DNA from: Xenophilus aerolatus
GTDB lineage: Bacteria > Pseudomonadota > Gammaproteobacteria > Burkholderiales > Burkholderiaceae_C
DNA: 64,000 nucleotides
Reading direction: 5' to 3'
NCBI GenBank assembly: GCA_030418545.1
Contig: QAIB01000001.1
Coordinates: forward strand, 744,001-808,000
Shown: in pieces, positions 4,959-28,204 of the stretch
How positions within the stretch are numbered: position 1 is the first letter of the stretch
Layout of the letters: every line of letters starts with the position of its first letter
Made by a program: the position numbers and the translations under genes
Notes under the pieces: model-generated
Told to the model about the DNA's origin: nothing
The model's database searches: none
What the model saw: the letters and a program-made list of their open reading frames with translations, nothing else

Positions 4959-5017
4959 CATCCAGCCGATCCCCAATGGACGCTGCCCCCCACGGCGGCT
5001 CTGGAGCACGTAGACCG

Positions 5018-7189
5018 ATGGCCGAGCGATCTTTCGTCGAAGAAGTGAAGAAGCTGCGTCTTGCGGAGGGCGAGACCTTCCGCGGCGAGGGCATCCTGGC
5101 CGTGACCAAGGCGCTGCTGGAATCGGGCGTGTCCTACGTGGCCGGCTACCAGGGCGCGCCGATCTCGCACCTGATGGACGTGCTGGCCGATGCGCAGGAC
5201 ATCCTGGCAGACCACGGCATCCGCTTCGAGAACAGCGCGAGCGAGGCGACGGCCGCGGCCACGCTGGCCGCTTCGGTCAACTACCCGCTGCGCGGCGCCG
5301 TGACCTTCAAGGCCACGGTGGGCACCAACGTCGCGTCGGACGCGCTGGCCAACCTGGCCTCGGGCGGCGTCACGGGCGGGGCGCTGGTCATCGTCGGCGA
5401 GGACTATGGCGAGGGCTCCTCGATCATGCAGGAACGCAGCCACGCGTTCGCCATGAAGTCGCAGATCTGGCTGCTCGACCCGCGCCCGAACCTGCCGAGC
5501 ATCGTGCAGGCGGTGAAGACGGGCTTCGAGCTTTCGGAAGCCAGCAACACGCCGGTGATGCTGCAACTGCGCATCCGCGCCTGCCACGTGCACGGCCAGT
5601 TCACCGCCTCGGACAACCGCCGCGCGAGCTTCACGCTGAAGGAGGCGCTTGAGCATCCACAGCGCGACGTCAGCCGCATCGTGCTGCCCCCGGCGAGCTT
5701 CGTGCACGAGCAGGAGAAGATCAAGGAGCGCTGGCCGGCGGCCGTGCGCTTCATCGAGGAGCGCGGTCTCAACGAGTTCTTCGCCGAGGGCGCCGACGAC
5801 ATCGGCATCATCGTGCAGGGCGGCTGCTACAACACGCAGGTCCGCGCCCTGGAGCGCCTGGGACTGGCCGACGTGTACGGCCGCTCCAGCGTGCCGCTGT
5901 ACGTGATGAACGTGGCCTATCCGGTCATCGACAACGAGGTGCTGCGCTTCTGCGAGGGCAAGCGCGCGGTGCTGGTGGTGGAAGAGGGCCAACCCAACTT
6001 CGTCGAGCAGAACATCGCCACGGTCCTGCGACAGGCGGGCAGCACCACGGCGCTGCACGGCAAGGACGTTCTGCCGCTGGCCGGCGAATACACCGCCCAG
6101 GCGGTGATGGCGGGCACGCGTGCCTTCTGCGAACGCTACGGCCGCCTCGCGCCCCAGGCCGCCCCGGCCCGGCAGGTGCCCGCCGCGCCGCGCAAGATCA
6201 TCCCGCTCGTCAGCGAGGCGCAGCTCATGCCGCTGGAGCGCAGCGTGCATGCCCGGCCGCCGGGCTTTTGCACCGGCTGCCCCGAGCGCCCGATCTTCAG
6301 CGCCATGAAGCTGGTGCAGCGCGACCTGGGCGAACACCATGTGTCGGCCGACATCGGCTGCCACCTGTTCTCGATCCTGCCGCCCTTCAACATCGGCAAC
6401 ACCACCATGGGCTACGGCCTCGGGGCGGCCGGGGCCGCGGCGTTGAACACGCAGGCCGACAAGCGCGCCATCGCCGTGATGGGTGACGGCGGCTTCTGGC
6501 ACAACGGGCTGACCAGCGGCATCGCCAACGCGGTGTTCAACCAGAGCGACAACCTCACGGTGGTGGTCGACAACAACTACACCTCGGCCACCGGCGGGCA
6601 AGACATCCTGTCGTCGAAGGCCGTGAACGCGACGCGCAGCACCGGCCACGAGATCGAGCAGGCGGTGCGCGGCGTGGGCGTCAAGTGGGTCAAGACCCTG
6701 CGCCGCACCTACGACGTGGCCGGCATGCGCGACACGCTCAAGGAGGCGCTGACGACGAAGGACAAAGGTCCGAAGGTCATCATTGCCCAGTCCGAATGCA
6801 TGCTCAACCGCCAGCGCCGCGAGAAGCCGCTGGTGCGCAAGGCCATCGCCGACGGCAAGCGCATGGTGCGCGAGAAATTCGGCGTCGACCCCGACACCTG
6901 CACCGGCGACCATTCCTGCATCCGCCTGTCGGGCTGCCCGTCGCTGTCGATCAAGCCGAACCCCGATCCGCTGCGGCAGGAGCCGGTCGCCGCCGTGATG
7001 GACAGCTGCGTGGGCTGCGGCGTGTGCGGCGAGGTGTCGCACGCGGCGGTGCTGTGCCCTTCCTTCTACAAGGCGCAGGTGGTGAGCAACCCCACGGGCT
7101 GGGACCGGCTGCGCGAGCGTGTGCGCGGCGCCGTCATCGGCTGGTTGCAGCGCCGAGATGCCGAGCGCCGTGCGCGCCTGGCCTTCTGA
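5018..7189 (+). CDS. iorA: indolepyruvate ferredoxin oxidoreductase alpha-type subunit (2-oxoacid:ferredoxin oxidoreductase)
   Basis: 723 residues from the ATG at 5018, which has GGAG at 5003-5006. The upstream ATG at 4976 lacks a ribosome site and would sit almost on the predicted transcript start. Domains in order: a pyrimidine-binding/POR alpha region (GEGILAVTKALLESGVSYVAGYQG), a CTGCPERP motif near residue 417, the TPP-binding region with GDGGFWHNGLTSG and VDNNYTSATGG, and a C-terminal ferredoxin-like Cys region ending in SCVGCGVCGE near residue 663. The family oxidatively decarboxylates indolepyruvate and related aryl-pyruvates to acyl-CoA with reduction of ferredoxin. It pairs with the next gene and could feed indoleacetyl-CoA into the locus, or act on another 2-oxoacid made in the pathway. 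Confidence 0.85.
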   Translation: MAERSFVEEVKKLRLAEGETFRGEGILAVTKALLESGVSYVAGYQGAPISHLMDVLADAQDILADHGIRFENSASEATAAATLAASVNYPLRGAVTFKATVGTNVASDALANLASGGVTGGALVIVGEDYGEGSSIMQERSHAFAMKSQIWLLDPRPNLPSIVQAVKTGFELSEASNTPVMLQLRIRACHVHGQFTASDNRRASFTLKEALEHPQRDVSRIVLPPASFVHEQEKIKERWPAAVRFIEERGLNEFFAEGADDIGIIVQGGCYNTQVRALERLGLADVYGRSSVPLYVMNVAYPVIDNEVLRFCEGKRAVLVVEEGQPNFVEQNIATVLRQAGSTTALHGKDVLPLAGEYTAQAVMAGTRAFCERYGRLAPQAAPARQVPAAPRKIIPLVSEAQLMPLERSVHARPPGFCTGCPERPIFSAMKLVQRDLGEHHVSADIGCHLFSILPPFNIGNTTMGYGLGAAGAAALNTQADKRAIAVMGDGGFWHNGLTSGIANAVFNQSDNLTVVVDNNYTSATGGQDILSSKAVNATRSTGHEIEQAVRGVGVKWVKTLRRTYDVAGMRDTLKEALTTKDKGPKVIIAQSECMLNRQRREKPLVRKAIADGKRMVREKFGVDPDTCTGDHSCIRLSGCPSLSIKPNPDPLRQEPVAAVMDSCVGCGVCGEVSHAAVLCPSFYKAQVVSNPTGWDRLRERVRGAVIGWLQRRDAERRARLAF

Positions 7190-7208
7190 GCCGACACGGG
7201 ATCCCGAG

Positions 7209-8744
7209 ATGACGCAACAGCAACCCATCAAGATCGCCATCCTCGCCATGGGCGGCGAGGGCGGCGGCGTGCTGGCCGACTGGCTGGTGGACCTGGGCGA
7301 GGCCAATGGCTGGATCGCGCAGACCACGTCGGTGCCCGGCGTGGCGCAACGCACCGGCGCCACCATCTACTACGTCGAGATGTACCCCGAGGCGCAGGCG
7401 CATGCCGACGGCGGTCAGCCTGTTCTGGCACTGATGCCGCTGCCGGGCGACGTCGACGTGGTGCTGTGCTCCGAGCTGATGGAAGCCGGCCGCGCCGTCC
7501 AGCGCGGGCTGGTCACGCCCGACCGCACCACGCTGGTGGCCTCCACGCATCGCGTCTATTCCATCGCCGAGAAGAGCGCCATGGGCGACGGCCGCGTCGA
7601 CAGCGCGCAGCTGCTGGCCCATGCCGACCAAGCGGCGCGGCGCTTCGTGCGCTTCGACATGGCCGAGGCCGCGGCGCAGAACGGCAGCGTGATCAGCGCC
7701 GTGCTCTTCGGCGCGCTGGCCGGCACCGGCGTGCTGCCTTTCGGCCGCGAACAGTTCGAGGCCACCATCGAGCGCGGCGGCGTGGGCGTCAAGCCCAGCC
7801 TGAAGGCCTTCGGCGCGGCATTCGTGCGGGCGCAGTCCGGCGAGGCGCCGGCGCAGGCCCAGCCGGTCGCAACTGCCGCGCCGCGCGCCACGTCGGCCGA
7901 CCCGGCCATCCAGGCGCTGCTCACGCGCCTCTACGGCGAGTTCCCGGCTCAGGCACAGACCCTGATGCTCGAAGGCCTGCGCCGCCTGGTCGACTACCAG
8001 GACGTGGCCTATGCCACGCTCTATCTGGACCGCATGGCCCAAGTCTGCAAGCTGCCCGACGACGCGGCCCGCACGCTGGCCTGCGAAACCGCGCGACACC
8101 TGGCGCTGTGGATGAGCTACGAGGACACGGCGCGCGTCGCGCAGCTCAAGACCCGCTCCAGCCGCTTCGCCCGCGTGAAGCAGGAAACCGGCGTCAACGC
8201 CGACCAGGTCATCGCCATCAACGAGTACATGCACCCGGGACTGCGCGAGATCTGCGAGACGCTGCCTGGCGGCCTGGGCCGGTGGCTCATGGGCTCGGGC
8301 GCGCCGCGCCGGCTGGTGGAGGGCATGACGAAGAAGGGCCGCGTGGTGCAGACCAGCTCGGTGCACGGCTTCCTGCTGCTCTCGGCCGTGGCCTTCGCCC
8401 GCCGCTGGCGCCGCAGCACCCTCCGCTACGCGGAAGAAAACGGCCGCATCGAGCAATGGCTGCAGGGCCTGGGCGACGCCGCATCGGCCTCGCCCGAGCT
8501 GGCGGTGGAGCTCGCACGCTGCCAGAAGCTGGTGAAGGGCTACAGCGACACCCACGAGCGCGGCGTGCGCAACTACGACGCCGTGATCGCCGCATGGCGG
8601 CAGGCCAGCCCCACGCTGGCGCCGGCCACCCTGCGCGCCTGGCGCGAGGCGGCGCTGGCCGACGAGCACGGCCATGCACTCAAGGCTGCGCTGGCGAAGC
8701 ATTCGGCCACCCCCACGGCCGGCGCCCTGGCCGTGCCCGCCTGA
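7209..8744 (+). CDS. iorB: indolepyruvate oxidoreductase beta-type subunit with C-terminal DUF6537
   Basis: 511 residues. The first ~195 residues are the POR gamma-type catalytic domain (ILAMGGEGGGVLADWLVDLGE, then TSVPGVAQRTGATIYYVEM). After an Ala/Pro/Gln-rich linker near residue 220 comes a helical domain of ~290 residues (ALLTRLYGEFPAQAQTLMLEG, then LKTRSSRFARVKQ) that matches the DUF6537 region found in some fused indolepyruvate oxidoreductases. It starts 19 bases after iorA and should form one enzyme with it. The extension makes it much longer than archaeal IorB (about 200 residues). Confidence 0.85.
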   Translation: MTQQQPIKIAILAMGGEGGGVLADWLVDLGEANGWIAQTTSVPGVAQRTGATIYYVEMYPEAQAHADGGQPVLALMPLPGDVDVVLCSELMEAGRAVQRGLVTPDRTTLVASTHRVYSIAEKSAMGDGRVDSAQLLAHADQAARRFVRFDMAEAAAQNGSVISAVLFGALAGTGVLPFGREQFEATIERGGVGVKPSLKAFGAAFVRAQSGEAPAQAQPVATAAPRATSADPAIQALLTRLYGEFPAQAQTLMLEGLRRLVDYQDVAYATLYLDRMAQVCKLPDDAARTLACETARHLALWMSYEDTARVAQLKTRSSRFARVKQETGVNADQVIAINEYMHPGLREICETLPGGLGRWLMGSGAPRRLVEGMTKKGRVVQTSSVHGFLLLSAVAFARRWRRSTLRYAEENGRIEQWLQGLGDAASASPELAVELARCQKLVKGYSDTHERGVRNYDAVIAAWRQASPTLAPATLRAWREAALADEHGHALKAALAKHSATPTAGALAVPA

Positions 8745-8757
8745 CGGAAGGCGAACC

Positions 8758-9762
8758 ATGACCGCACCGCCCGCCATCGCCACCCTCCCAATGCGTGTGG
8801 CCGAGACCCGCGCGCTCAACCCGCTGATCCGCCTGTTGCGCCTGGAGCATGCCGAGGGCATCGCGCTGCCCGGCTGGGCGCCCGGTGCGCACATCCAAGT
8901 GCAGGTGCAGTTGCCGGACGGCCAGGCCGACTGGCGCCACTATTCGCTGATCGACCTGGAAGGCGTGGCCGGCACACCCGGCTTCGCGCCCGGGGCCTAC
9001 ACCATCGCCGTCCGACTGGAGGAGGGCGGCCGCGGCGGCTCGCGCTTCATGCACCAGGGCCTGAAGCCTGGCGACCGCGTCACCGTGCAGCCGCCGCGCA
9101 ACGACTTTCCGCTGGACGACGGCGCGGCCCGCGCCGTGTTTCTGGCCGGTGGCATCGGCATCACGCCGCTGGCGAGCATGGCCGCGCGCTGCCGGGCCCA
9201 GGGCCGGCCGGTGGACCTGCATTACGCGGGCCGCAGCCGCGCGCTGCTGGCCTTCGCCGACGAGCTGCAGGCGCTGCTGGGCACCGGTTTGCGCCTGCAT
9301 GCGGACGACGAGGCCGGGGGCGCGGGCTTCGACATCGGCACGCTGCTGGACGGCATGGCGCAGGGCGAGCCGCTCTACGTCTGCGGACCCAAGCCGCTGC
9401 TCGACGCCGTGCTGGCCGCCACGCAGGCGCGCGGCTGGGCGCCGGGCCGCGTGCACTTCGAACTGTTCAGCGCCGCGGCCGTGGAAGCGGGTGACCAAGC
9501 CTTCGAGGTCGAGCTCGCGCAATCGGGCCAGCGCTTCACCGTGCCGGCCGACCAGACGGTGCTGGACTGCCTGATCGAACACGGCTGCGACCCGCTCTAC
9601 GACTGCAAGCGCGGCGAATGCGGCGTGTGCGCCGTGCCGGTGATCGAGGGCCAGGTGGACCACCGCGACTATGTGCTGTCGCAGGCCGAGAAGGACGGCG
9701 GCCAGGTGATGCAAATCTGCATCTCCCGCGCCAAGGGCCCGCGCCTGGTGCTCGACCTGTAG
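8758..9762 (+). CDS. flavin and plant-type 2Fe-2S oxygenase reductase (phthalate dioxygenase reductase type)
   Basis: 334 residues. The FMN/FAD-binding barrel has RHYSL (60-64), the NAD(P)H domain has GGIGITP (131-137) and YVCGPKPLLDAV, and the C-terminal 2Fe-2S domain has Cys283, Cys288, Cys291 and Cys321. This is the class IA order (flavin, NADH, ferredoxin), which passes electrons from NADH to a Rieske oxygenase. It lies 30 bases upstream of the first Rieske alpha gene. It is the only such reductase in the window, so it may serve both Rieske pairs. In an iad-type locus it would match the reductase partner of the auxin dioxygenase. Confidence 0.9.
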   Translation: MTAPPAIATLPMRVAETRALNPLIRLLRLEHAEGIALPGWAPGAHIQVQVQLPDGQADWRHYSLIDLEGVAGTPGFAPGAYTIAVRLEEGGRGGSRFMHQGLKPGDRVTVQPPRNDFPLDDGAARAVFLAGGIGITPLASMAARCRAQGRPVDLHYAGRSRALLAFADELQALLGTGLRLHADDEAGGAGFDIGTLLDGMAQGEPLYVCGPKPLLDAVLAATQARGWAPGRVHFELFSAAAVEAGDQAFEVELAQSGQRFTVPADQTVLDCLIEHGCDPLYDCKRGECGVCAVPVIEGQVDHRDYVLSQAEKDGGQVMQICISRAKGPRLVLDL

Positions 9763-9792: not shown

Positions 9793-11106
9793 ATGACACG
9801 CTACCGAGACAACCCCGACGCCATCCGCGCCCTGGTGCAAGCGCAGCAGGTGCACCGCGACCTCTACATCGACCCGGAGCTGTTCGCGCTGGAGCAGGAG
9901 CATTTCTTCGCCAACACCTGGAACTACGTCGGCCACGACAGCCAGGTGCCCAAGCCGGGCGACTACATCACCGTGGACATCGCGGGCCGGCCGCTGATCG
10001 TGGTGCGCCACACCGACGGCGCGGTCAAGGTGCTGATGAACCGCTGCGCCCACAAGGGCTCGCGGGTGGTCAACGGCGCCTGCGGCAACACGGGCAAGTT
10101 CTTCCGCTGCCCCTACCACGCCTGGACCTTCAGGACCGACGGCGCGCCGCTCGCGATCCCGCTCAAGAACGGCTACGAGGGCACCGGCCTGAAGGACTGC
10201 GACGCGGCCAGGGGGCTGGTGCCGGTGCGGCATGTGCGGCTCTACCGCGGCTTCATCTTCGTCAAGCTCAACGACGTGGGGCAGGACTTCGAGGAGTACT
10301 TCGGCGACTCGCTCTCTTCCATCGACAACATGGCCGACCGCTCGCCCGAGGGTGAGCTGGAGGTGGCGGGCGGGTGCCTGCGCTTCATGCACCAGTGCAA
10401 CTGGAAGATGTTCGTCGAGAACCTCAACGACACCATGCATCCCATGGTGGCGCACGAGTCCTCTGCGGGCACCGCCAAGTCGATGTGGGCCGGGCAGCCG
10501 GACGATGCGCCCAAGCCCATGGCCATCGAGCAGTTCGTGCCCTTCATGTCCGACTACCAGTTCTTCGACGGCATGGGCGTGCGCGTGTACGACAACGGCC
10601 ACAGCTTTTCGGGCGTGCACTTCAGCATCCACAGCAAGTACTCGGGCATCCCCGGCTACGAGGAGGCCATGAAGGCCCGCTACGGCGAGGAGCGCACGGC
10701 GCAGATCCTGGGCATGGCGCGGCACAACACCGTGTACTACCCCAACCTCACGATCAAGGGCGCCATCCAGGCCATCCGCGTGGCACGCCCCATCGCGGTG
10801 GACCGCACCCTGGTCGAGAGCTGGACCTTTCGCCTGAAGGGCGCACCCGAGGAGCTGCTGCAGCGCACCACCACCTACAGCCGGCTCATCAACTCGCCCT
10901 TCTCGGTGGTGGGCCACGACGACCTGCAGGCCTACCGCGGCATCCAGGCCGGCCTGCATGCCAGCGGCAACGACTGGGTCAGCCTGCACCGCAATTACGA
11001 CGCGCACGAGGGCCGCGAGCGCGAGCAGACCAGCAACGGCACCAACGAGCTGCCCATGCGCAACCAGTACCGGTCGTGGCTCAAGCACATGACCCTGACG
11101 ATGTGA
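9793..11106 (+). CDS. Rieske aromatic ring-hydroxylating oxygenase, alpha subunit (first pair; iadD-like)
   Basis: 437 residues. The Rieske 2Fe-2S cluster ligands are visible: CAH at residues 85-87 and CPYH at 106-109. The catalytic domain has the bridging Asp213 and the mononuclear iron ligands His216 and His221 in NLNDTMHPMVAH, with a probable third ligand Asp in the GHDD segment near residue 376. The gene follows the reductase and precedes a beta subunit, so the products should form a three-component dioxygenase. Position in a locus with an isatin-hydrolase-like gene suggests indole-3-acetate as substrate and dioxindole-3-acetate as product; that is inference. The second pair at 19961 is a paralogue. 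Confidence 0.88.
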   Translation: MTRYRDNPDAIRALVQAQQVHRDLYIDPELFALEQEHFFANTWNYVGHDSQVPKPGDYITVDIAGRPLIVVRHTDGAVKVLMNRCAHKGSRVVNGACGNTGKFFRCPYHAWTFRTDGAPLAIPLKNGYEGTGLKDCDAARGLVPVRHVRLYRGFIFVKLNDVGQDFEEYFGDSLSSIDNMADRSPEGELEVAGGCLRFMHQCNWKMFVENLNDTMHPMVAHESSAGTAKSMWAGQPDDAPKPMAIEQFVPFMSDYQFFDGMGVRVYDNGHSFSGVHFSIHSKYSGIPGYEEAMKARYGEERTAQILGMARHNTVYYPNLTIKGAIQAIRVARPIAVDRTLVESWTFRLKGAPEELLQRTTTYSRLINSPFSVVGHDDLQAYRGIQAGLHASGNDWVSLHRNYDAHEGREREQTSNGTNELPMRNQYRSWLKHMTLTM

Positions 11107-11120
11107 GCGAGCGCACGACC

Positions 11121-11618
11121 ATGGCCGAACTCACCCCCGCCACCGTCACCCGCGAGCAACTGCTCGACTTCGTCCTGCACGAGGCCCGGCTGCTCGACGA
11201 GAAGCGCTTCGACGAATGGAATGCGCTCTTCACGGACGACGCCATCTACTGGGTGCCGCTCACACCCGGCCAGCCCGACGGCCTGAACCACACCTCGCAC
11301 CTGTACGAGGACAAGCTGCTGCGCGACCTGCGCATCGAGCGCTTCAAGAGCCCGCGCGCCTTCTCGCAGCAGCCACCCAGCCGCTGCCAGCACGTGCTGC
11401 AGCTGCCCGGGCTGGAGTCGCGCGACGAGGCGGCCAACCGCTTCGTGCTGCGCACGCCCTTCCACTACAGCGAGGCGCAGGCGGACGAGATGCTCTTCCT
11501 CACCGGCGTGGCCTGGCACCACCTGTGCGTGCAGGATGGCGCCCTGCGCATGGTGCTCAAGCGCGTGGACCTGATCAACAGCGATGCCGCGCTGCCGGCG
11601 GTGCAGCTCTTTCTGTGA
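11121..11618 (+). CDS. aromatic ring-hydroxylating dioxygenase, beta subunit (first pair; iadE-like)
   Basis: 165 residues of the SnoaL/NTF2-like small-subunit fold: FVLHEARLLDEKRFDEWNAL near the start, FTDDAIYWVPL, and a SRCQHVLQ strand in the middle. Small subunits are mainly structural in the alpha3beta3 oxygenase. The ATG at 11121 is chosen; it lies 14 bases after the alpha gene, with no strong ribosome site, so translation is probably coupled. Confidence 0.88.
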   Translation: MAELTPATVTREQLLDFVLHEARLLDEKRFDEWNALFTDDAIYWVPLTPGQPDGLNHTSHLYEDKLLRDLRIERFKSPRAFSQQPPSRCQHVLQLPGLESRDEAANRFVLRTPFHYSEAQADEMLFLTGVAWHHLCVQDGALRMVLKRVDLINSDAALPAVQLFL

Positions 11619-11631
11619 GGCAGGCATCGGC

Positions 11632-13260
11632 ATGACGTACCGCACGATCCACGACGCCTTCACGGCCAGCGCCGGGCGCACGCCGCAGGCGGACTTCCTC
11701 TACACCGAGCCGGCCACGGCGGAGGTCTATGGCATTCCGGCCGGCGCCACGCCCTGGGCCGCGGCCGCGGCCGAGGTCGAACGCCTGCGCCTGGCCTATG
11801 CGCAGGCCGGCTGGGGCCATGGCCACCGCGTCGGCCTGCTGCTGGAGAACCGGCCCGCCTTTCTGTATCACTGGTTCGCGCTCAATGCGCTGGGCGTGAG
11901 CGTGGTGCCCATCAACGCCGAGATGCGCTCGGCCGAGCTGGCCTACCTGATCGGCCACAGCGAGATCGGCCTGGCCGTCACGCTGCCGCAGCGCGCCCGC
12001 GACCTGGAGGCCGCTGCGGCCCAGGCCGGCCGGCGCCTGCACACCATGGCCGCCGACGCCGCCGACGTGCCGGCGCCCACCGAGCCGGCACCCCGCGCCC
12101 ACGAGGTCGTCGGCCTGGGCACGGAATGCGCGCTGCTCTACACCTCGGGCACCACCGGCCGGCCCAAGGGCTGTATGCTGAGCAATGCCTACTTCCTGCG
12201 CGCGGGCGAGTGGTATGCGGGCCTCGACGGCGTGTGCGCCTTCCGCCGCGACCAGGAGCGGCTGATGACGCCGCTGCCGCTGAACCACGTCAATGCGATG
12301 GCCTTCTCGACCATGGTGGTGCTGGTGGCCGGCGGCTGCCTGGTGCAGCTGGATCGATTCCACCCCCGCAGCTGGCTGCAGAGTGCGCGCGACAGCGGCG
12401 CCACCATCGTCCATTACCTGGGCGTGATGCCCGCCATGCTGCTGGCCGCGGCCGAGACGCCGGCCGACCGCGACCATGCGATCCGCTGGGCCTTCGGCGC
12501 CGGCGTGGACCGCAAGAACCACGCGCCCTTCGAGGCCCGCTTCGGCTTCCCGCTGGTGGAGGCGTGGGCCATGACCGAGACCGGCGCCGCCGCCTGCATC
12601 ATGGCCAACCACGAGCCGCGGCACGTGGGCACCAGCTGCTTCGGCCGACCCGAGGACTTCGTCGAGGTGCGGCTGGTCGACGACGGGGGCCAGGACGTGC
12701 CCGCCGGCACGCCCGGCGAGCTGCTGGTGCGGTCCAGCGGCGACGACCCGCGGCGCCACTTCTTCGGCGGCTACCTGAAGGACCCGGCCGCCACCGGCGA
12801 AGCCTGGCAGGGCGGCTGGTTCCACACCGGCGACATGGTGCGGCGCGACGAGGCGGGCAGCCTCTTCTTCGTGGACCGCAAGAAGAACGTCATCCGCCGC
12901 AGCGGCGAGAACATCTCGGCGGTGGAGGTGGAAAGCGTGCTCAATCAGCACGCCGCCGTGAAGGTGTCGGCCGTGGCCGCCACGCCCGACGCGGTACGCG
13001 GCGACGAGGTGCTGGCCTGCATTGTCCTCGAGCCCGACGCGGCGGCCATGCCCGACGAGGCGCTGGCCGCGGACATCGTGCGCCACGCGCTCGCCCAGCT
13101 GGCCTACTACAAGGCGCCCGGTCACGTGGCTTTTGTCGAGGCGCTGCCGCTCACGGCCTCGCAGAAGATCCAGCGCGGCGAGCTGCGGCAGATGGCGCAG
13201 GCGCTGCCCGGCACCGGCGCTTGCTTCGACACCCGCGCGATGAAGAAGAGGCAGGACTGA
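11632..13260 (+). CDS. AMP-forming acyl-CoA synthetase (first)
   Basis: 542 residues. The AMP-binding loop [13 protein letters not shown] lies near residue 168, the adenylation motif near EAWAMTETGAA, and WFHTGDMVRRDE and FVDRKKNVIRRSGENIS follow toward the C-terminal domain with its catalytic lysine region (ASQKIQRGELR). Such enzymes join an acid to CoA at the cost of ATP. It sits between the Rieske pair and the Ltp2-like/DUF35 genes, so the likely job is to activate the oxygenation product (dioxindole-3-acetate in the proposed route). Its stop overlaps the next start (TGATG). Confidence 0.85.
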   Translation: MTYRTIHDAFTASAGRTPQADFLYTEPATAEVYGIPAGATPWAAAAAEVERLRLAYAQAGWGHGHRVGLLLENRPAFLYHWFALNALGVSVVPINAEMRSAELAYLIGHSEIGLAVTLPQRARDLEAAAAQAGRRLHTMAADAADVPAPTEPAPRAHEVVGLGTECALLYTSGTTGRPKGCMLSNAYFLRAGEWYAGLDGVCAFRRDQERLMTPLPLNHVNAMAFSTMVVLVAGGCLVQLDRFHPRSWLQSARDSGATIVHYLGVMPAMLLAAAETPADRDHAIRWAFGAGVDRKNHAPFEARFGFPLVEAWAMTETGAAACIMANHEPRHVGTSCFGRPEDFVEVRLVDDGGQDVPAGTPGELLVRSSGDDPRRHFFGGYLKDPAATGEAWQGGWFHTGDMVRRDEAGSLFFVDRKKNVIRRSGENISAVEVESVLNQHAAVKVSAVAATPDAVRGDEVLACIVLEPDAAAMPDEALAADIVRHALAQLAYYKAPGHVAFVEALPLTASQKIQRGELRQMAQALPGTGACFDTRAMKKRQD

Positions 13261-14432
13261 TGGCACGGCGCCGCAGCAACTACGAGGGCGCGGCCGTGGC
13301 CGTGCCCGTCACCGTGCCCTACCAGCGCTACTCCACCGAGGGGGCGCACTGGTTCCTCGGCAGAGCGGTGCGCGCGCTGGTCGAGGCCAGCGGCATCGCC
13401 AAGGACGACATCGACGGCCTGTGCCTGTCGAGCTTCTCGCTGGCGCCCGACACGGCCGTGGGCGTGACCCAGCACCTGGGCCTGTCGCCGCGCTGGCTGG
13501 ACCATGTTCCCACCGGCGGCGCCTCCGGCGTGATGTGCCTGCGCCGCGCCGCGCGCGCGGTGCAGTGCGGCGATGCCGAGGTGGTGGCCTGCGTGGCAGC
13601 CGACACCAACCATGTCGACTCCTTCCGGCAGACGCTGGGCGCCTTCAGCAATTTCGCCCGCGATGCGACCTATCCCTACGGCTCGGGCGGGCCGAATTCC
13701 ATCTTCGCGATGATCACGGCGCACTACATGCGCCAGTTCGGCGCCCGCCGCGAGGACTTCGGCCGCATCTGCGTGGCGCAGCGGCAGAACGCGCTGGGCA
13801 ATCCCAACGCCATGTTCAAGAAGGCGCTGACGCTCGATGAATACATGGCGGCGCGGCCCATCTCCGACCCGCTGCACCTGTTCGACTGCGTCATGCCCTG
13901 CGCCGGCGCCGAAGCCTTCCTGGTGATGACGTCCGAGCGGGCCCGCGACCTCGGCCTGCCCTATGCCACGCTGCGCGGCGGCATCGAGCGCCACAACGCC
14001 TTTGCCGACGATCCGATCATGGTGCGCGGCGGCTGGGCCCGCGACCGCGACGACCTGTATGCGCAGGCCGGCGTGCAGCCCAAGGACATCGACTTCATCC
14101 AGACCTACGACGACTACCCGGTCATCGTGATGATGCATTTCGAGGACCTGGGCTTCTGCGAGAAGGGCGAGGGCGCGGCCTTCGTGCAGTCGCATACGTT
14201 GACGCACGACGGCAGCTTTCCCAACAACACCAGTGGCGGCCAGCTCTCGGCCGGCCAGGCGGGCGCCGCCGGCGGCTTCCTGGGCATGACCGAGACGCTG
14301 CGCCAGCTCACCGGCCAGGCCGGGCCGCGGACGGTGCCCGACGCGAAGCTCGGACTGGTGGCCGGCTTCGGCATGGTCACCTACGACCGCTGCCTGTGCA
14401 CCGGCGCCGTGATCCTCGGGAGGCAGGAATGA
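13260..14432 (+). CDS. thiolase-fold lipid-transfer-type protein, Ltp2-like retro-aldolase candidate
   Basis: 390 residues with the SCP-x/non-specific thiolase fold. At the nucleophile position, where thiolases have Cys in a C-x-S-G motif, this protein reads GASG (residues 87-90), so the catalytic Cys is a Gly. The C-terminal part carries FIQTYDDYPVIVMMHFEDLG and HDGSFPNNTSGGQLS, typical of the branch that pairs with DUF35 proteins. In that branch, Ltp2 of sterol breakdown cleaves a beta-hydroxyacyl-CoA by a retro-aldol reaction instead of thiolysis. Immediately downstream is a DUF35 protein, as expected for such a complex. Applied here, dioxindole-3-acetyl-CoA would yield isatin and acetyl-CoA; this is inference. 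Confidence 0.8.
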   Translation: MARRRSNYEGAAVAVPVTVPYQRYSTEGAHWFLGRAVRALVEASGIAKDDIDGLCLSSFSLAPDTAVGVTQHLGLSPRWLDHVPTGGASGVMCLRRAARAVQCGDAEVVACVAADTNHVDSFRQTLGAFSNFARDATYPYGSGGPNSIFAMITAHYMRQFGARREDFGRICVAQRQNALGNPNAMFKKALTLDEYMAARPISDPLHLFDCVMPCAGAEAFLVMTSERARDLGLPYATLRGGIERHNAFADDPIMVRGGWARDRDDLYAQAGVQPKDIDFIQTYDDYPVIVMMHFEDLGFCEKGEGAAFVQSHTLTHDGSFPNNTSGGQLSAGQAGAAGGFLGMTETLRQLTGQAGPRTVPDAKLGLVAGFGMVTYDRCLCTGAVILGRQE

Positions 14433-14463
14433 TGCGTTTCGTTTTCCGCAGGAGGGCCGCAGG

Positions 14464-15717
14464 ATGACCATGCCCCTCATGCGCCCCAAGCGCAAGAACC
14501 CCGTCCTGCGCACGCGCCAGATGAATCTGCCGCCCTGGGCGCGCGGGCGGGAGGCCCTGGGCATCACCGCCGCCGCGGCCGAGGGCCGCTTCGAGCTCCA
14601 GGTGTGCGAGGAATGCGGCACCGTGCAATACCCGCCGCGCGGCGCCTGCAGGAAGTGCCTGTCGACCGAGCTGCGCTGGCGCCCCCAGACCGGCGAGGGC
14701 GAGTTGCTCAGCGCCACCACGCTGCACCACAGCAACGACCTGTTCTTCCGCGAGCGCCTGCCCTGGCGCCTGGGCATGGTCCGGCTGGACAGCGGCCCCT
14801 CCCTCATGGTCCACCTGCACGGCGAGGTGGGCGAGGCACCGCAGCGCGTGCGCGTGGGTGCCCGGCTCGACCGCGCCGGACAGGCGGTACTGATCGGATT
14901 CCCCTTTGAAGGAAGTGCACACATGGCCGACGACCCGATGCTGCGCGAGATGACCAGCGACCCCAAGTTCCGCAAGGTACTGGTGACGGACGGCAAGACG
15001 CCCGCCGGCCAGGCCCTGGTGCGCGCCCTCGTCAAGGCTGGCGCCGACATCGTGTGGGTGGGCCATGCCGAGCCCTGGAAGCATCTCGGCGGCCTGGAGG
15101 ACATCAGCGCGCTGCCGCAGGTGACGCTGGTGCCGCTGGACCTGACGAACGGCCGCGCCGTCACCGAACTGGCCGGCGAGATCGGCGGCAAGGTGGACAT
15201 CGTGATCAACAACGCCGAGGTGCACCGCACCTTCGGCATCGGCGCGCGCCGCGGCACCGACGTGGCCAAGCTGGAGATGGACATCAACTACTTCGGCCTG
15301 CTGCGCCTGGCGCAGGAGTTCGGCCCCGCGCTCAAGGGCCGCTCGGCCGACGGCGCGACCGGGGCCACGGCCTGGGTCAACCTGCTGTCGATCTACGCGC
15401 TGTCCAACTTTCCGCCGCACGGCACCTTCAGCGCCAGCAAGGCCGCGGCCTATTCGCTGGCCCAGTGCCTGCGCGCCGAGATGCGGCCGGCCGGCATCCG
15501 CGTCATCAATGTGTTCCCCGGCCCGATCGACGACGAATGGAACCAGCACATGCCGCCGCCGAAGCTGGGCCCCGACGCGCTGGCCAATGCCATCGTCAAG
15601 GCGCTGCGCGATGGCGTGGAGGACGTCTACCCCGGCGACGTGGCGCAGGAATGGCTGCAGCGCTGGCGCGACAACCCCAAGGTGCTCGAGCGCGAGCTGG
15701 CGACGAATGGTGGATGA
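14464..15717 (+). CDS. DUF35 (zinc ribbon/OB-fold) protein fused to a degenerate short-chain dehydrogenase domain
   Basis: 417 residues. Residues 1-150 are DUF35: a rubredoxin-like zinc ribbon with Cys48, Cys51, Cys62 and Cys65, then an OB fold rich in GEGELLSATTLHH and FFRERLPWRLGMV. Residues ~165-417 look like an SDR, but the glycine motif is altered (VTDGKTPAGQALV), NNAG is NNAE, and the catalytic Tyr of YxxxK is Phe322 (FSASK, Lys326 kept). The second domain probably lacks redox activity. DUF35 proteins partner with Ltp2-like aldolases, and the gene follows one. The start has AGGAGG at 14450-14455. The fusion may tie cleavage to product handling, or the SDR part may be structural. Confidence 0.8.
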   Translation: MTMPLMRPKRKNPVLRTRQMNLPPWARGREALGITAAAAEGRFELQVCEECGTVQYPPRGACRKCLSTELRWRPQTGEGELLSATTLHHSNDLFFRERLPWRLGMVRLDSGPSLMVHLHGEVGEAPQRVRVGARLDRAGQAVLIGFPFEGSAHMADDPMLREMTSDPKFRKVLVTDGKTPAGQALVRALVKAGADIVWVGHAEPWKHLGGLEDISALPQVTLVPLDLTNGRAVTELAGEIGGKVDIVINNAEVHRTFGIGARRGTDVAKLEMDINYFGLLRLAQEFGPALKGRSADGATGATAWVNLLSIYALSNFPPHGTFSASKAAAYSLAQCLRAEMRPAGIRVINVFPGPIDDEWNQHMPPPKLGPDALANAIVKALRDGVEDVYPGDVAQEWLQRWRDNPKVLERELATNGG

Positions 15718-15739
15718 GGCCACTGGCAAGGAGACACCC

Positions 15740-16561
15740 ATGAGCAACGCAACCCTGACCCCCGCTGCCGCATCTACCGGCCTCGACGCCCTGGCCGGCC
15801 TGGTGGGCGCCCTGGCCAGTGGCCAGATCCGCGTGGTCGACCTCACGCAGACGCTGACGCCCGAGTTCCCGCAGATCGCGCTGCCGCCCGAGATGGGCCA
15901 GTGCTGGCCCTTCCGCATCGAGGAGGTGTCGCGCTACGACGAGCGCGGCCCGGGCTGGTACTGGAACAACTTCTCCTGCGGCGAGCACACGGGCACGCAC
16001 TTCGATGCGCCCATCCACTGGATCTCCGGCCGCGACCTGCCCAACAACGCGGTGGACACCATCCCCGTGCAGAACTTCGTGGCACCGGCCTGCGTGATCG
16101 ACTGCTCGCCCCAGGTCAAGGACGACCCGGACTACCTGCTGACGCTGGAGGACATCGCCGAGTGGGAGGCCGCGCACGGCCGCATCCCCGCCGGCGCGTG
16201 GGTGCTGATGCGCACCGACTGGTCCAAGCGCACCGACCCCGCCGAGTACCAGAACTTCGACGAGACCGGCCAGCACACGCCCGGCCCCAGCACCGCCGCG
16301 GTGCGCTTCCTGGTGGAAGAACGCGGCGTGCTGGGCTTCGGCTCCGAAGCCATCGGCACCGACGCCGGCCAGGGCTACCACCTGCGCCCGCCGTACCCCT
16401 GCCACTACTACATGCACGGAGCAGGACGCTACGGCCTGCAGTGCCTGTGCAACCTGGACCTGTTGCCGCCCGCGGGTGCGGTGCTGATCTGCCCGCCGCT
16501 GAAGATCGAGAAGGGCAGCGGCAGCCCGTTGCGCGTGCTCGCGCTGGTGGGTTCGGCATGA
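15740..16561 (+). CDS. cyclase-family metal-dependent hydrolase, isatin hydrolase-like
   Basis: 273 residues. The metal-binding signature HTGTHFDAPIH lies at residues 83-93 (His83, His87, Asp89, His93), preceded by VDLTQTLTPEFPQ. This is the cyclase family that includes manganese-dependent isatin hydrolase and kynurenine formamidase. Isatin hydrolase opens isatin to isatinate, a step in aerobic indole-3-acetate breakdown through dioxindole-acetate and isatin. The context of Rieske oxygenase, ligase and Ltp2/DUF35 makes isatin more likely than N-formylkynurenine. A good ribosome site (AAGGAG near 15728) supports the ATG at 15740. It overlaps the next gene by 4 bases. Confidence 0.82.
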   Translation: MSNATLTPAAASTGLDALAGLVGALASGQIRVVDLTQTLTPEFPQIALPPEMGQCWPFRIEEVSRYDERGPGWYWNNFSCGEHTGTHFDAPIHWISGRDLPNNAVDTIPVQNFVAPACVIDCSPQVKDDPDYLLTLEDIAEWEAAHGRIPAGAWVLMRTDWSKRTDPAEYQNFDETGQHTPGPSTAAVRFLVEERGVLGFGSEAIGTDAGQGYHLRPPYPCHYYMHGAGRYGLQCLCNLDLLPPAGAVLICPPLKIEKGSGSPLRVLALVGSA

Positions 16562-17295
16562 ATGCAGTGCACGACCGCGGCGTTGCCGTCGTCACCGGCG
16601 GCAGCGCCGGCATCGGCAAGGCGATCTGCCAGGACCTGCTGGACGGTGGCTGGGAGGTGGTCAGCCTGGCCCGACGGACCGCCGACATCGCGCATGCGCG
16701 TCTGCACAGCGTCGAGGTGGACCTGAGCGACCGCGCCGCCACGGCGCAGGCCGCGGCGTACGTGGCGTCGCGCTGGCAGGTCACCACGGTCGTGCACAAC
16801 GCGGGCGTGATCCGCGCCGCGCTGCTGCCGCAGGTACAGCTGACGGACCTGGATGCACTGGTGGAACTGCACCTGGGCTGTGCCGTGCAGCTGGTGCAGG
16901 CCGCGTTGCCGGCGATGCGTGCCGCGGGCTTCGGGCGCGTGGTGCTGCTGTCGTCGCGCGCCGCGCTCGGCCTGGCCACGCGCACCAGCTATTCGGCGAC
17001 CAAGGCCGGCATGCTGGGCATGGCCCGCACCTGGGCGCTGGAGCTCGGCGGCGAGGGCATCACCGTCAATGTCGTCGCGCCCGGCCCCATCCGCACCGAC
17101 ATGTTCTACGACGTGGTCGAGGCCGGCAGCGACAAGGAGAAGGCGCTCGCGGCCAGCGTGCCGGTCAAGCGCCTCGGCGAGTCCGCCGATGTGGCACGGG
17201 CCGTGCGTTTCTTCGTCGAGCCGGCCAACAGTTTCGTGACGGGGCAGGTGCTGTACGTGTGCGGAGGCACCAGCGTGGGCAGTCTCGCGCTGTGA
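16558..17295 (+). CDS. short-chain dehydrogenase/reductase
   Basis: 245 residues. The cofactor motif VTGGSAGIGKA, HNAG, and the active-site YSATK with an upstream Ser (LLSSRAAL) are all intact, so it is a working classical SDR, in contrast to the fused domain at 14464. It resembles 3-oxoacyl-ACP reductase-type enzymes. The ATG overlaps the preceding stop. It is the last gene of the iorA-led run; a separate promoter follows at 17348. Substrate unknown. Confidence 0.8.
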   Translation: MNAVHDRGVAVVTGGSAGIGKAICQDLLDGGWEVVSLARRTADIAHARLHSVEVDLSDRAATAQAAAYVASRWQVTTVVHNAGVIRAALLPQVQLTDLDALVELHLGCAVQLVQAALPAMRAAGFGRVVLLSSRAALGLATRTSYSATKAGMLGMARTWALELGGEGITVNVVAPGPIRTDMFYDVVEAGSDKEKALAASVPVKRLGESADVARAVRFFVEPANSFVTGQVLYVCGGTSVGSLAL

Positions 17296-17489: not shown

Positions 17490-18659
17490 ATGATGAAATC
17501 TCGACGTCCCCTGCGCAGCCTCGCTGCCCTGGCCTGTGCCACGCTGCTGGGCGCTGCGGCGCCGGCCGCATTCGCGGCCGACTACAAAGTCGGCTTCATC
17601 ACCTCCCTGTCCGGGCCCGTCTCGTCGCTGGGCATTCCCTATCAGAAGGGCATGGCGGCAGCGCAGGCCTTCAAGGGCGACATCGACGGCAAGAAGGTGC
17701 AGGTGATCCAGCTCGACGATGCGTCGGACCCGAGCACGGCCGCACGCAACGCGCGCAAGCTGATCGACGAGGACAAGGTCGACGTCATCATCGGCACGGC
17801 CGGATCGCCCGGGGCGCTGGCCATCGCCGCCGTGGCACGCGAGACCAGGACGCCGCTGATCTCCATCGCCAACGCCAACCTGCCGGGCGAGGAGGGCGCA
17901 TGGATGGTCACGCTGCCCCAGCCGGCGCCGCTGATGGTCAGCGCGGTGGTCGACCGGATGAAGAAATCCGGCGTGAAGACGGTGGGCTACATCGGCTTTT
18001 CCGATGCCTGGGGTGACCTGGTGTACGACGCTCTGCAGAAGAGCGCCGAGCCGGCCGGGATCAAGGTGGTATCCAACGAGCGCTATGCGCGCGCCGACGC
18101 GTCGGTGACGGGCCAGGTGCTGAAGATCGTGGCGCTGAAGCCGGACGCGGTGCTCACCGGAACCTCGGGCACGCCCGGCGCGCTGCCCTACCTGGCGCTG
18201 GCCGAGCGCGGCTACAAGGGCCAGATCTACGGCATGCATGCGCTGATCAACCCCGACTTCGTGCGCGTGGGCGGCGCGGCGGTCGAGGGCCTGCTGGCAC
18301 CCACCGGCCCCGTGATCGTGGCCGAGCAGCTGCCGGCCGACAACCCGATCCGCAAGGTCTCGATGGACTTCCGCGCCGCCTACCAGAAGGCCAACGGCGC
18401 CGCGCCCACCGATGCCTTCTCCGCCTACAGCTTCGATGCCTGGCTGATCTTCCTGGATGCGGCCAAGCGCGCCTCGGCGAAGGCCGAGCCGGGCACGCCG
18501 CAGTTCCGCGTCGTCCTGCGCGACGCCATCACCAGCACGAAGGAGCTGGCGGGCACGCACAGCGTCTACAACTTCAAGCCCAACGACCGCTACGGCTCGG
18601 ACGAACGCTCGCGCGTGGTGGTCAGGCTCGAGAAGGGCCAGTGGAAGCTCGTGCCCTGA
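17490..18659 (+). CDS. branched-chain amino acid-type ABC transporter substrate-binding protein (1)
   Basis: 389 residues with a Sec signal peptide (RR..., hydrophobic ALACATLLGAAA, AFA-A cleavage near residue 30), then a Leu/Ile/Val-binding-protein fold starting YKVGFITSLSGPVSSLG. GGAG at 17480-17483 fits the ATG at 17490, not the in-frame ATG at 17478. It is one of three related binding proteins (also 18778 and 21786). It and the second share a long identical stretch around VAEQLPADNPIRK and the same last residues. The family binds amino acids or aromatic acids in the periplasm; with the surrounding catabolic genes an indole or aromatic acid is likely. First gene after the 17348 promoter. 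Confidence 0.88.
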   Translation: MMKSRRPLRSLAALACATLLGAAAPAAFAADYKVGFITSLSGPVSSLGIPYQKGMAAAQAFKGDIDGKKVQVIQLDDASDPSTAARNARKLIDEDKVDVIIGTAGSPGALAIAAVARETRTPLISIANANLPGEEGAWMVTLPQPAPLMVSAVVDRMKKSGVKTVGYIGFSDAWGDLVYDALQKSAEPAGIKVVSNERYARADASVTGQVLKIVALKPDAVLTGTSGTPGALPYLALAERGYKGQIYGMHALINPDFVRVGGAAVEGLLAPTGPVIVAEQLPADNPIRKVSMDFRAAYQKANGAAPTDAFSAYSFDAWLIFLDAAKRASAKAEPGTPQFRVVLRDAITSTKELAGTHSVYNFKPNDRYGSDERSRVVVRLEKGQWKLVP

Positions 18660-19960: not shown

Positions 19961-21277
19961 ATGACCACGCGCTTTCGCAACGACCCGGCCGCCCTCCAGG
20001 CGCTGGTGCAGGAACAGCGGGTGCACCGCGACCTGTACCTGAGCCAGGAACTCTTCGAGCTGGAAGAGGACCGCTTCTTCGCCCGCACCTGGCAGTTCGC
20101 CGGCCATGCGAGCGAGGTGCCCGCCGCGGGCGATTACTGCACGCGGGAGATTGCCGGCCGCCCGCTGCTGATGGTGCGGCAGGCCGACGGCGGCGTGGGC
20201 GTCTTCTACAACCGCTGCGCGCACAAGGGCGCGCAACTGGTGACCGAGGCGCATGGCAACACCGGCCGCTTCTTCCGCTGCCCCTACCACGCCTGGACCT
20301 ACAAACTGGACGGCGCGCCGCTCGCCCTGCCGCTGAAGGCCGGCTACGAAGGCACGGGCCTGGCGCAATGCGAGTCGGGCCAGGGGCTGCAACCGGTGGC
20401 CGGCGTGGCCGTGTATCGCGACTTCGTGTTCGTGCGGCTGGCGAAAGACGGCCCGGGCTTCGACGAGTACTTCGGCGACGTCCTGCACGTGATCGACAAC
20501 ATGGTGGATCGCTCCCCCGAGGGCCGGCTCACCGTGGCGGGCGGCGTGCTGCGCAACGTCATCCACTGCAACTGGAAGATGTACCTGGAGAACATCAACG
20601 ACACGGTGCATCCCATGTCCACCCACGAGTCGGCCACGCAGGCGGCCGATGCACTGTGGAAGGGCCAGCCCGCCGATGCCCCGAAGCCCATGGCGATGGA
20701 GCAGATCCTGCCCTTCGGCTCGGGCTACGACTTCTTCGACCGCATGGGCGGTCGCGTGTACCCCAACGGCCACAGCGTGCTGGGCACGCGCTTCAGCATC
20801 CATTCGAGCTACGCGCAGTTGCAGGACTACGAGGACGGGCTGCGCAGCGCCCTGGGCGAAGAGCGTGCCAACGAGGTGCTGCAACGTTCGCCGCAGAACG
20901 CGGTGCTCTTCCCCAGCCTGTCGGTGAAGGGCTCGCCGCAGGCCATCCGCGTGATCCGGCCGCTGGCCGCCGACCGCACGTTGGTGGAAGCCTGGAGCTT
21001 TCGTGCCGAGGGCGCGCCCGAGCTGCTGCTGCAGCGTTCGATGGGCTACAACCGCCTGGTCTTCTCGCCCATGTCCGTGGTGGCCCATGACGACGTGCAC
21101 CTGTTCGAGAGCATGCAGCAGGGGCTGCGCGGCGAGGGCAACGAATGGGTCAGCCTGCACCGCGGCTTCGTGCCCGGCGAGCGCGACGACGCGGTGGAAG
21201 AGACCAGCGGCACCGACGAGCGCCTGATGCGCAACCAGTTCCGGGCCTGGGCGAAGTGGATGGGAGAGGGCGCATGA
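19961..21277 (+). CDS. Rieske aromatic ring-hydroxylating oxygenase, alpha subunit (second pair)
   Basis: 438 residues. Rieske ligands Cys86, His88, Cys107 and His110, bridging Asp214 and iron ligands His217 and His222 (NINDTVHPMSTH) are all present. The order of segments matches the first alpha subunit throughout, so the two pairs arose by duplication or parallel recruitment. No reductase lies next to this pair; it probably uses the one at 8758. It may act on a different indole or on a downstream aromatic intermediate. Confidence 0.88.
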   Translation: MTTRFRNDPAALQALVQEQRVHRDLYLSQELFELEEDRFFARTWQFAGHASEVPAAGDYCTREIAGRPLLMVRQADGGVGVFYNRCAHKGAQLVTEAHGNTGRFFRCPYHAWTYKLDGAPLALPLKAGYEGTGLAQCESGQGLQPVAGVAVYRDFVFVRLAKDGPGFDEYFGDVLHVIDNMVDRSPEGRLTVAGGVLRNVIHCNWKMYLENINDTVHPMSTHESATQAADALWKGQPADAPKPMAMEQILPFGSGYDFFDRMGGRVYPNGHSVLGTRFSIHSSYAQLQDYEDGLRSALGEERANEVLQRSPQNAVLFPSLSVKGSPQAIRVIRPLAADRTLVEAWSFRAEGAPELLLQRSMGYNRLVFSPMSVVAHDDVHLFESMQQGLRGEGNEWVSLHRGFVPGERDDAVEETSGTDERLMRNQFRAWAKWMGEGA

Positions 21278-21753
21278 CGCTTTCCGCCGAAGACTTCGTC
21301 CTCCACGAGGCCGAGCTGATCGACGACCGCCGCTGGGACGACTGGCTTGCCCTGTTCGCCCCGGACGGTCGCTACTGGATCCCGCTCCAGGGCGCGGCGC
21401 AGGCCGATGCCGACAGCCACAACGCGCTCGCACTGGAAGACCGCATGCTGCTCGAGCTGCGCGTCAAGCGCCTGCACAGCCCGCGCGCCCATTCGCAGCA
21501 TCCGGCCAGCCGCTGCCAGCATGTGTTGCAGACCGCGCGCCGTCTGGCGGCGTTGCCGGGCGACGGCGGGATCGTCCGCCTGCGCACCGCCTTCGTCTAC
21601 ATCGAGGTCCGCGGCCCGCAGCAGGTGCTGCTTGCCGGCCATTGCGTGCACACGCTGGTGCCGGGCGGGCCGCTCGGATGGCTGATCCGCGAGAAGCGCG
21701 TCAACCTGCTCGATGCGGACCAGCCCTTGCCAGCCATCCAGTTGTTCGTCTAG
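21274..21753 (+). CDS. aromatic ring-hydroxylating dioxygenase, beta subunit (second pair)
   Basis: 159 residues, the same fold and motifs as the first beta subunit (EDFVLHEAELIDDRRWDDW, GRYWIPLQ, SRCQHVLQ, and a shared ending PAIQLFV against PAVQLFL). The ATG at 21274 overlaps the alpha stop (ATGA) and has GGGAGAGGG just upstream. Structural partner of the alpha subunit at 19961. Confidence 0.88.
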   Translation: MTLSAEDFVLHEAELIDDRRWDDWLALFAPDGRYWIPLQGAAQADADSHNALALEDRMLLELRVKRLHSPRAHSQHPASRCQHVLQTARRLAALPGDGGIVRLRTAFVYIEVRGPQQVLLAGHCVHTLVPGGPLGWLIREKRVNLLDADQPLPAIQLFV

Positions 21754-21785
21754 TCCATTCCCTTCCTCCAACCAGGAGTGCTCCC

Positions 21786-22955: not shown

Positions 22956-23019
22956 GCGGCGCGAAGGGAGCGCAACGCATGTTGAACAACGACGCCACCG
23001 AACGAAGGACCCCACGACC

Positions 23020-24071
<1,052 letters not shown>

Positions 24072-24075
<4 letters not shown>

Positions 24076-25859: not shown

Positions 25860-26582
<723 letters not shown>

Positions 26583-26596
<14 letters not shown>

Positions 26597-28187: not shown

Positions 28188-28204
28188 CGTTGGACGCAGG
28201 CGGC

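Follow-up and report, generated by a model that had tools for sequence, protein, structure and literature searches.

How is the acetate side chain removed from dioxindole-3-acetate (DOAA) when bacteria break down auxin? The question is raised by a run of genes at positions 9793–16561 of a 64,000-nucleotide stretch of Xenophilus aerolatus DNA (positions 744001–808000 of one contig, in a genome of 5.84 Mb; this whole stretch is referred to here as the window). A first-pass annotation had read in this run a Rieske oxygenase pair, an acyl-coenzyme A (CoA) ligase, a thiolase-fold protein, a DUF35 protein and an isatin-hydrolase-like protein, and all of these genes, iadD to iadI, are indeed present, open and on one strand according to an open reading frame (ORF) and Pfam check. 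The run is part of the published iad auxin-degradation locus, here in a genome of the Comamonadaceae, and the gene set itself has already been published; what is new is the mechanistic reading of IadG, IadH and IadI. We propose, with a probability of roughly 80%, that IadF, IadG, IadH and IadI make up a CoA-dependent module for removal of the acetate side chain from DOAA: IadF would form the CoA thioester, IadG together with IadH would split it by a retro-aldol reaction into isatin and acetyl-CoA, and IadI would open isatin.

The chemistry of the substrate narrows the choice of reactions. The hydroxyl group of DOAA at C3, beta to the carboxyl group, is a tertiary alcohol, and the CoA ester of DOAA is a beta-hydroxyacyl-CoA. 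Since this alcohol cannot be oxidised to a beta-keto group, thiolysis is closed and retro-aldol cleavage is open, as it is with the C17 steroid alcohol for the sterol side-chain aldolase Ltp2. In anaerobic auxin breakdown a thiolase acts on a beta-keto intermediate; this solution was rejected for IadG, which has neither the nucleophile nor the catalytic histidine of a thiolase. Of the formulae that matter below, C8H7NO3 is that of isatinate, whereas C8H7NO2 is that of dioxindole and not of isatin.

Published work on Variovorax, above all a recent preprint, places the four genes at this step. Deletion of iadCDE, iadF, iadG, iadH, iadI or iadJ significantly reduces anthranilate, and iadF, iadG, iadH and iadI are needed between DOAA and anthranilate; C10H9NO4 builds up without any one of these four genes, and most without iadF (PMC12633357). 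This comes close to the refuting test of the first-pass annotation, which had named growth without the ligase or the thiolase-like gene, with metabolites as the published readout: these mutants make significantly less anthranilate and pile up C10H9NO4 (PMC12633357). C8H7NO3, reported as not being N-formylanthranilate, and C7H7NO accumulated strongly only with the whole iad set, and the formation of DOAA by IadCDE and IadJ, the latter assigned to the second oxidation step, has been shown in Variovorax by others (PMC12633357). Isatin, dioxindole and isatinic acid have been detected in V. paradoxus cultures, and isatin in strain CL14 (PMC9613470). The preprint reads the side-chain step as reductive and, from annotation, has IadF form the CoA ester, IadG act as a ketothiolase, IadH as an alcohol dehydrogenase and IadI, which carries the annotation kynurenine formamidase, as an amidase; the terms "retro-aldol" and "DUF35" have 0 occurrences in the examined text of that source (PMC12633357). 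In the open-licence papers searched, no description of IadG as an aldolase, or of the IadG/IadH pair as a retro-aldolase, turned up; other papers may exist.

IadG (13260–14432, plus strand; 390 residues) was compared across 88 rows, the window and 87 related loci inspected as 17 kb stretches. Residues 87–90 read GASG, and Gly87 (codon 13518–13520, plus strand) aligns with the nucleophile Cys of thiolases, with Gly89 of CtSal and with Gly83 of Ltp2; it is Gly in 88/88 rows, so that the replacement of the nucleophile noticed in the first-pass annotation holds throughout the sample. Equally invariant are Asn146, Tyr283, Asp284, Asp285, Tyr286, Gln328 and Gln333, and every row has YDDY (residues 283–286, codons 14106–14117, plus strand; Tyr283 and Asp285 form the proposed catalytic pair) instead of HDxF and GQAG instead of GHP. 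Aligned with these rows, 7YVY and BbsB, both thiolases, show Cys opposite Gly87, HDAF opposite YDDY and GHP opposite GQ; CtSal and Ltp2 have YDCY and YDHF, respectively, opposite YDDY. With nucleophile Cys, catalytic His and GHP all absent in 88/88 rows, IadG is, by its residues, not a thiolase (EC 2.3.1.16).

The nearest solved chain to IadG is instead CtSal (9MYR), the aldolase of the bile-acid C5 side chain in Comamonas testosteroni (phmmer E-value 4.2e-50, profile search 5.5e-62), followed by 4U4E, a protein named thiolase with YDSF at this place, and by Ltp2. A Foldseek search with the predicted IadG model, whose predicted local distance difference test (pLDDT) averages 80.9, likewise returned CtSal first (TM 0.85, E 1.2e-27). 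A tree built with 13 IadG rows from the 88 separates, with support 100/99, the HDxF sequences from every YDxx sequence, among them IadG, Sal and Ltp2, and it unites IadG with two YDD(Y/F) homologues with support 97/97. By position, IadG Tyr283 corresponds to the catalytic base, Tyr302 in CtSal and Tyr294 in Ltp2, Asp285 to Cys304 of Sal and His296 of Ltp2, and Gln333 to Gln352 of Sal and Tyr344 of Ltp2, while Arg199 (82/88 rows; Lys in 6) occupies the position of the CoA-binding Arg216 (residue roles in Sal and Ltp2 according to PMC12329534). The thiolase fold, Gly in place of Cys and a Tyr base in a YDxx motif are thus found together in IadG, beside a gene for a DUF35 partner. With Sal–Shy(DUF35), IadG further shares equivalents of Gln347 and Gln352, the Arg for CoA and probably a beta-hydroxyacyl-CoA substrate; unlike Sal, it has Asp285 for Cys304 and Pro145 for the oxyanion Gln161, its substrate would be an oxindole, and its partner carries a degenerate short-chain dehydrogenase/reductase (SDR) domain rather than a MaoC hydratase and a C4 zinc ribbon rather than Cys3His1. 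With the sterol C3 side-chain aldolase Ltp2–ChsH2(DUF35) (6OK1) the pair has in common Gly for Cys, the Tyr base, a C4 zinc DUF35 domain and, presumably, cleavage at a ring alcohol. The earlier description of IadG as Ltp2-like, and the comparison of conserved Tyr residues that it called for, therefore stand for the Gly and for Tyr283, equivalent to Tyr294, but not for the acid residue, where IadG has Asp285 and Gln333 against His296 and Tyr344 of Ltp2. IadG appears to be a variant of the Sal/Ltp2 aldolases that retains their base but has a new acid, for which Asp285 is the candidate. A further YDDY thiolase-fold homologue, 38% identical to IadG (L132:2653–4014; L018 in the alignment), is clustered with genes for ligase, dienelactone hydrolase, cupin and FAA hydrolase proteins, and no DUF35 gene was among the 10 ORFs scanned; the homologue is perhaps a retro-aldolase for another substrate.

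IadH (14464–15717, plus strand; 417 residues; zf-ChsH2, OB_ChsH2_C and adh_short) is a fusion of a DUF35 domain, composed of a zinc ribbon and an OB fold (residues 36–136), with an SDR domain that begins at about residue 171. The four zinc-ligand Cys residues, in a C4 pattern, are kept in all 86 IadH rows, and the best solved matches of the DUF35 domain are ChsH2, the partner of Ltp2, and Shy, that of Sal. The SDR half has fared differently. In TGxxxGxG, Asp or Asn replaces the first Gly in 86/86 rows, the Gly of NNAG is kept in 1/86 (Glu in 83), and the position of the catalytic Tyr (Phe322 in the window, codon 15427–15429, plus strand) holds Phe in 70 rows, Tyr in 13, His in 2 and Ala in 1, with Tyr and Lys of YxxxK kept together in 9/86; the pair of motifs expected of an SDR dehydrogenase, TGxxxGxG and YxxxK, is thus broken. 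As controls, IadJ from the same loci (16558–17295, plus strand) keeps Gly, Ser, Tyr and Lys in 73/73 rows, with one column next to the Gly variable, and among SDR relatives that are free-standing proteins Tyr, Lys and NNAG are all present in 4/4. A working dehydrogenase was accordingly rejected for most IadH rows on the lost motifs, and is kept below as a rival; the SDR half is more probably a scaffold. The genes iadG and iadH are adjacent in 85/85 loci that hold both (87 loci were examined, and the contig ends in the other two). In a survey of 398 genomes of the phylum (IadG at E ≤ 1e-75, at most 4 candidates scored per genome), full-length IadH was found in the same 8 genomes as IadG and in no other; in four further genomes the match is confined to the SDR half. 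Such co-occurrence and adjacency give the picture expected of a fixed complex, which would explain why iadH is needed without a redox step. In one locus (L128, genome G257) the IadH frame is reported with one inner TAG.

The third protein, IadI (15740–16561, plus strand), matches the isatin hydrolases of Labrenzia and Ralstonia (5NNB, 5NMP) with 374–378 bits over most of its length, the best value being that to isatin hydrolase A, 5NNB. GLQC or GLAS together with the metal site is the apparent signature of isatin hydrolase activity, kynurenine formamidase having a different motif (PMC6117287). All 83 IadI rows have GLQC, the metal motif HxGTHxDxPxH and, as the WxW pocket motif, WYW, each of which is shared with the Labrenzia and Ralstonia enzymes, unlike the operon context. 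By family signature, IadI is an isatin hydrolase; assignment as kynurenine formamidase was rejected, with 24.6 bits to the arylformamidase model against a cut-off of 223.05. The genes iadH and iadI are adjacent in 82/83 loci, and this, like the 85/85 for iadG and iadH, is no chance arrangement. If IadI takes isatin, the preceding step should yield isatin, which retro-aldol cleavage does and reductive removal does not.

Taken together, the proposed sequence of events would run as follows. IadCDE and IadJ would supply DOAA, and IadF (11632–13260, plus strand; AMP-forming acyl-CoA ligase, AMP-binding 5.5e-54) would convert it to dioxindole-3-acetyl-CoA. IadG and the DUF35 domain of IadH would then act as the retro-aldolase: Tyr283 would deprotonate the hydroxyl group at C3, the bond that joins the side chain to C3 would break, and the acetyl-CoA enolate would be reprotonated, probably by Asp285, with release of isatin and acetyl-CoA. 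The SDR half of IadH would serve as scaffold only, and IadI would hydrolyse isatin to isatinate. This is the route that the first-pass annotation had put forward, from activation as CoA ester to a one-step release of isatin by the thiolase-like/DUF35 pair. Its support comes from the lost thiolase residues, the nearness to Sal, the fixed DUF35 partner and the isatin-hydrolase signature; it is well supported by sequence, the best-supported reading of this locus and in agreement with most of the published mutant data, though unproven.

Several observations weigh against it. C8H7NO2 builds up without iadI, and also in a strain with iadCDEFGH, iadJ and iadK2 (PMC12633357). The acid residue of the known aldolases, Cys304 in Sal or Tyr344 in Ltp2, is absent from IadG, which has Asp285 and Gln333 in 88/88 rows, and Pro145 stands at the position of the oxyanion Gln161; in Sal, changing the acid Cys to Ser, Ala or His makes activity undetectable (PMC12329534). 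IadG is 32% identical to Sal and Ltp2, but also to 4U4E, and 29% and 26% to 7YVY and BbsB, respectively. Within the YDxx group of the tree, the forks that place IadG with Sal and Ltp2 have weak support (88/72 and 83/44) and do not tell which of the two is nearer. The match to CtSal in fold does not count as evidence separate from that in sequence, and by fold the thiolase 7YVY comes second, ahead of Ltp2. Tyr and Lys of the SDR motif are retained in 9/86 IadH rows, and the predicted IadH model, with its SDR fold retained, matches NADP-bound SDR structures best (5U4S), a match that is no test of catalysis. Two loci, L098 and L105, have no iadI in their 17 kb. As for the mutant compound, C8H7NO2 does not fit isatin unless an extra assumption is added. 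Carbonyl reductases readily convert isatin to dioxindole, and we assume that C8H7NO2 in the iadI mutant is a by-product of left-over isatin reduced by other enzymes.

The same compound fits two other schemes. In that of the preprint, the ketothiolase IadG and the alcohol dehydrogenase IadH remove the side chain reductively (loss of C2H2O2) to give C8H7NO2, on which the amidase IadI then acts; the accumulation of C8H7NO2 without iadI follows directly (PMC12633357), and the SDR Tyr is after all kept in 13/86 IadH rows, with Lys in 9. This scheme nevertheless asks for thiolase chemistry from a protein that lacks the nucleophile Cys, the catalytic His and GHP in 88/88 rows, acting on DOAA, which has no beta-keto group, for dehydrogenase chemistry from a domain that has lost the SDR Gly motif in 86/86 rows, and for an amidase that bears the isatin-hydrolase signature in 83/83 rows; we consider it very unlikely. 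Alternatively, IadG could perform the retro-aldol cleavage and the SDR half of IadH reduce isatin to dioxindole within the complex, so that IadI would open dioxindole and isatin would be a side product. An SDR fused beside an aldolase would suit channelling, and dioxindole would fit C8H7NO2 in the iadI mutant (PMC12633357). Most IadH rows, however, have lost the nucleotide and catalytic motifs that are intact in IadJ (73/73) and in the free SDR relatives (4/4), and IadI closely resembles characterised isatin hydrolases, whose WxW pocket motif it shares, which makes this variant, too, very improbable.

A third alternative is that IadG only binds and orients the CoA ester, while the C–C bond is cut otherwise, for example after opening of the lactam, with a different leaving group. 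The missing acid residue of the known aldolases would be accommodated in this way, but the Tyr base, Gly87 and both Gln residues are invariant in IadG, and in the mutant series the lactam hydrolase IadI acts after the C8 compound forms (PMC12633357); of the three alternatives we find this one the least credible.

The distribution of the genes in other genomes bears on how far retro-aldol cleavage by IadG and IadH depends on the oxygenase. In one genome (G273), iadG-H-I lies about 18 kb from a run of iadA–E and iadJ. In a Castellaniella locus (L094), iadG-H-I follows immediately on iadA/B, and none of iadC, D, E and J is found above 40% identity in the 17 kb. In two genomes (G321 and G444), iadF-G-H-I stands beside an oligopeptide-type binding protein and a PF01177 protein; a genome search detected no IadD in either at E 1e-40, and no Rieske gene was found beside iadFGHI among the ORFs chosen for the scan. 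The G-H-I core can thus occur separately from the oxygenase, as would be expected of a module that acts on DOAA of any origin. A luciferase-like monooxygenase (L127:471–1559) and a salicylyl-CoA 5-hydroxylase-like fusion (L126:3965–6349) were seen there and were not tied to the first step. PF01177 (Asp/Glu/hydantoin racemase) genes occur near iadG in three loci (L126:11431–12978, L127:5211–6017 and L129:9977–10819), all in genomes related to that of the window at the phylum level only. On balance we lean, if only slightly, towards a wider reading, in which IadG would represent a third catalytic type of thiolase-fold acyl-CoA retro-aldolase (Tyr-Asp in YDDY, as opposed to Tyr-Cys or Tyr-Tyr), the first assigned outside steroid breakdown in the searchable literature, with its DUF35 partner carried on a dead dehydrogenase turned scaffold; in the two genomes without detected IadD, beside an oligopeptide-type transporter, the iadF-G-H-I module may break down plant-made oxidised auxin or its conjugates.

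The run at 9793–16561 cuts the operon: a MarR gene, iadA/B, iadC, iadJ and the gene of an auxin-binding-protein homologue belong to it too. The published markers of an iad locus are iorB/iadB and iotA/iadA, with MarR_73 (iadR) before iadA (PMC9613470), and both the iadA/iadB pair and a MarR gene ahead of iadA are present in the window. The divergent regulator, in the iadR/MarR_73 position, lies at 4389–4874 on the minus strand (Pfam MarR 4.1e-14). On the plus strand follow IadA (4976–7189), a thiamine diphosphate (TPP)-dependent 2-oxoacid oxidoreductase alpha subunit resembling IorA/IotA, with TPP_enzyme_C and 294.7 bits to the IOR_alpha model, below the model cut-off of 650.9 (iadA is iotA in the naming of PMC9613470); IadB (7209–8744), an IorB-like beta subunit with POR and DUF6537 (NF006179, 712 bits against a cut-off of 348); and IadC (8758–9762), the flavin/2Fe-2S reductase of the oxygenase (Fer2, FAD_binding_6, NAD_binding_1). 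The start codons of IadB and IadC were chosen by us, the open frames beginning at 7119 and 8674, respectively. Next come IadD (9793–11106, plus strand), the Rieske alpha subunit, with 849 bits over 437/437 residues to the solved IadD 9O71 (also 7YLS), and IadE (11121–11618, plus strand), the beta subunit (Ring_hydroxyl_B). Beyond iadJ, an IadK2-like auxin-binding protein (17490–18659, plus strand; Peripla_BP_6) matches 7YLT, which we take to be IadK2 from the text of PMC10374108, with 718 bits.

The resulting order of regulator, iorA/iorB-like pair, reductase, oxygenase, ligase, thiolase-like, DUF35/SDR, cyclase-like and SDR genes and binding protein corresponds to iadR followed by iadA to iadK2 in Variovorax (PMC9613470, PMC10374108). 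The V. paradoxus CL14/CL014 locus has the same kinds of genes, the same order from the regulator through iadA–K2 and two MarR genes (PMC9613470, PMC10374108, PMC12633357); it belongs to another species and was compared by kinds and order of genes, and its proteins IadG, IadH and IadI are read differently here than in the preprint, which calls them ketothiolase, alcohol dehydrogenase and amidase (PMC12633357). Among named records, the closest at IadG are Xenophilus sp. E41 (100% identity), Pseudacidovorax (96–98%) and Variovorax (83–87%). A second block of the locus extends to about 30.8 kb (19961–30815, plus strand) and holds an IadD/E-like Rieske pair, a binding protein, an ABC (ATP-binding cassette) transporter, an acyl-CoA ligase, two SDRs, a MarR gene (29827–30390) and a thioesterase. 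The window thus has, as expected of iad loci from the first-pass annotation, both Rieske genes and MarR regulators, the latter at 4389–4874 and 29827–30390. The second Rieske pair (19961–21753) is IadD/IadE-like, with 566–573 bits to solved IadD, and in some loci the oxygenase before iadG is at best 56–61% like either copy in the window. The second ligase (26583–28187), perhaps an anthranilate-CoA or related ligase, has relatives at 55–58% identity that precede iadG in 11 loci, one of them adjoining the salicylyl-CoA 5-hydroxylase-like fusion of L126; a 50% relative of that fusion lies elsewhere in the genome of the window (C1:178695–180971).

Isatinate is an aryl 2-oxoacid, and the iorA/iorB-like 2-oxoacid oxidoreductase that heads the operon (4976–8744) is also found by iadG-H-I in L094 and in G321 (L136:9716–13407). 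The iadA/iadB enzyme may convert isatinate to 2-aminobenzoyl-CoA; counter to such a role, the iadC–K2 segment yields anthranilate without iadA/B (PMC12633357).

Removal of the side chain in the preprint rests on annotation (PMC12633357). Were the retro-aldol reading true, the pathway would close with known chemistry, acetyl-CoA would be recovered and three gene annotations would change. Root bacteria shape the growth of roots by degrading auxin, and other bacteria have been given the iad route for this purpose (PMC12633357). For the enzyme family known from steroid breakdown, the assignment would add an aromatic substrate and a new catalytic pair.

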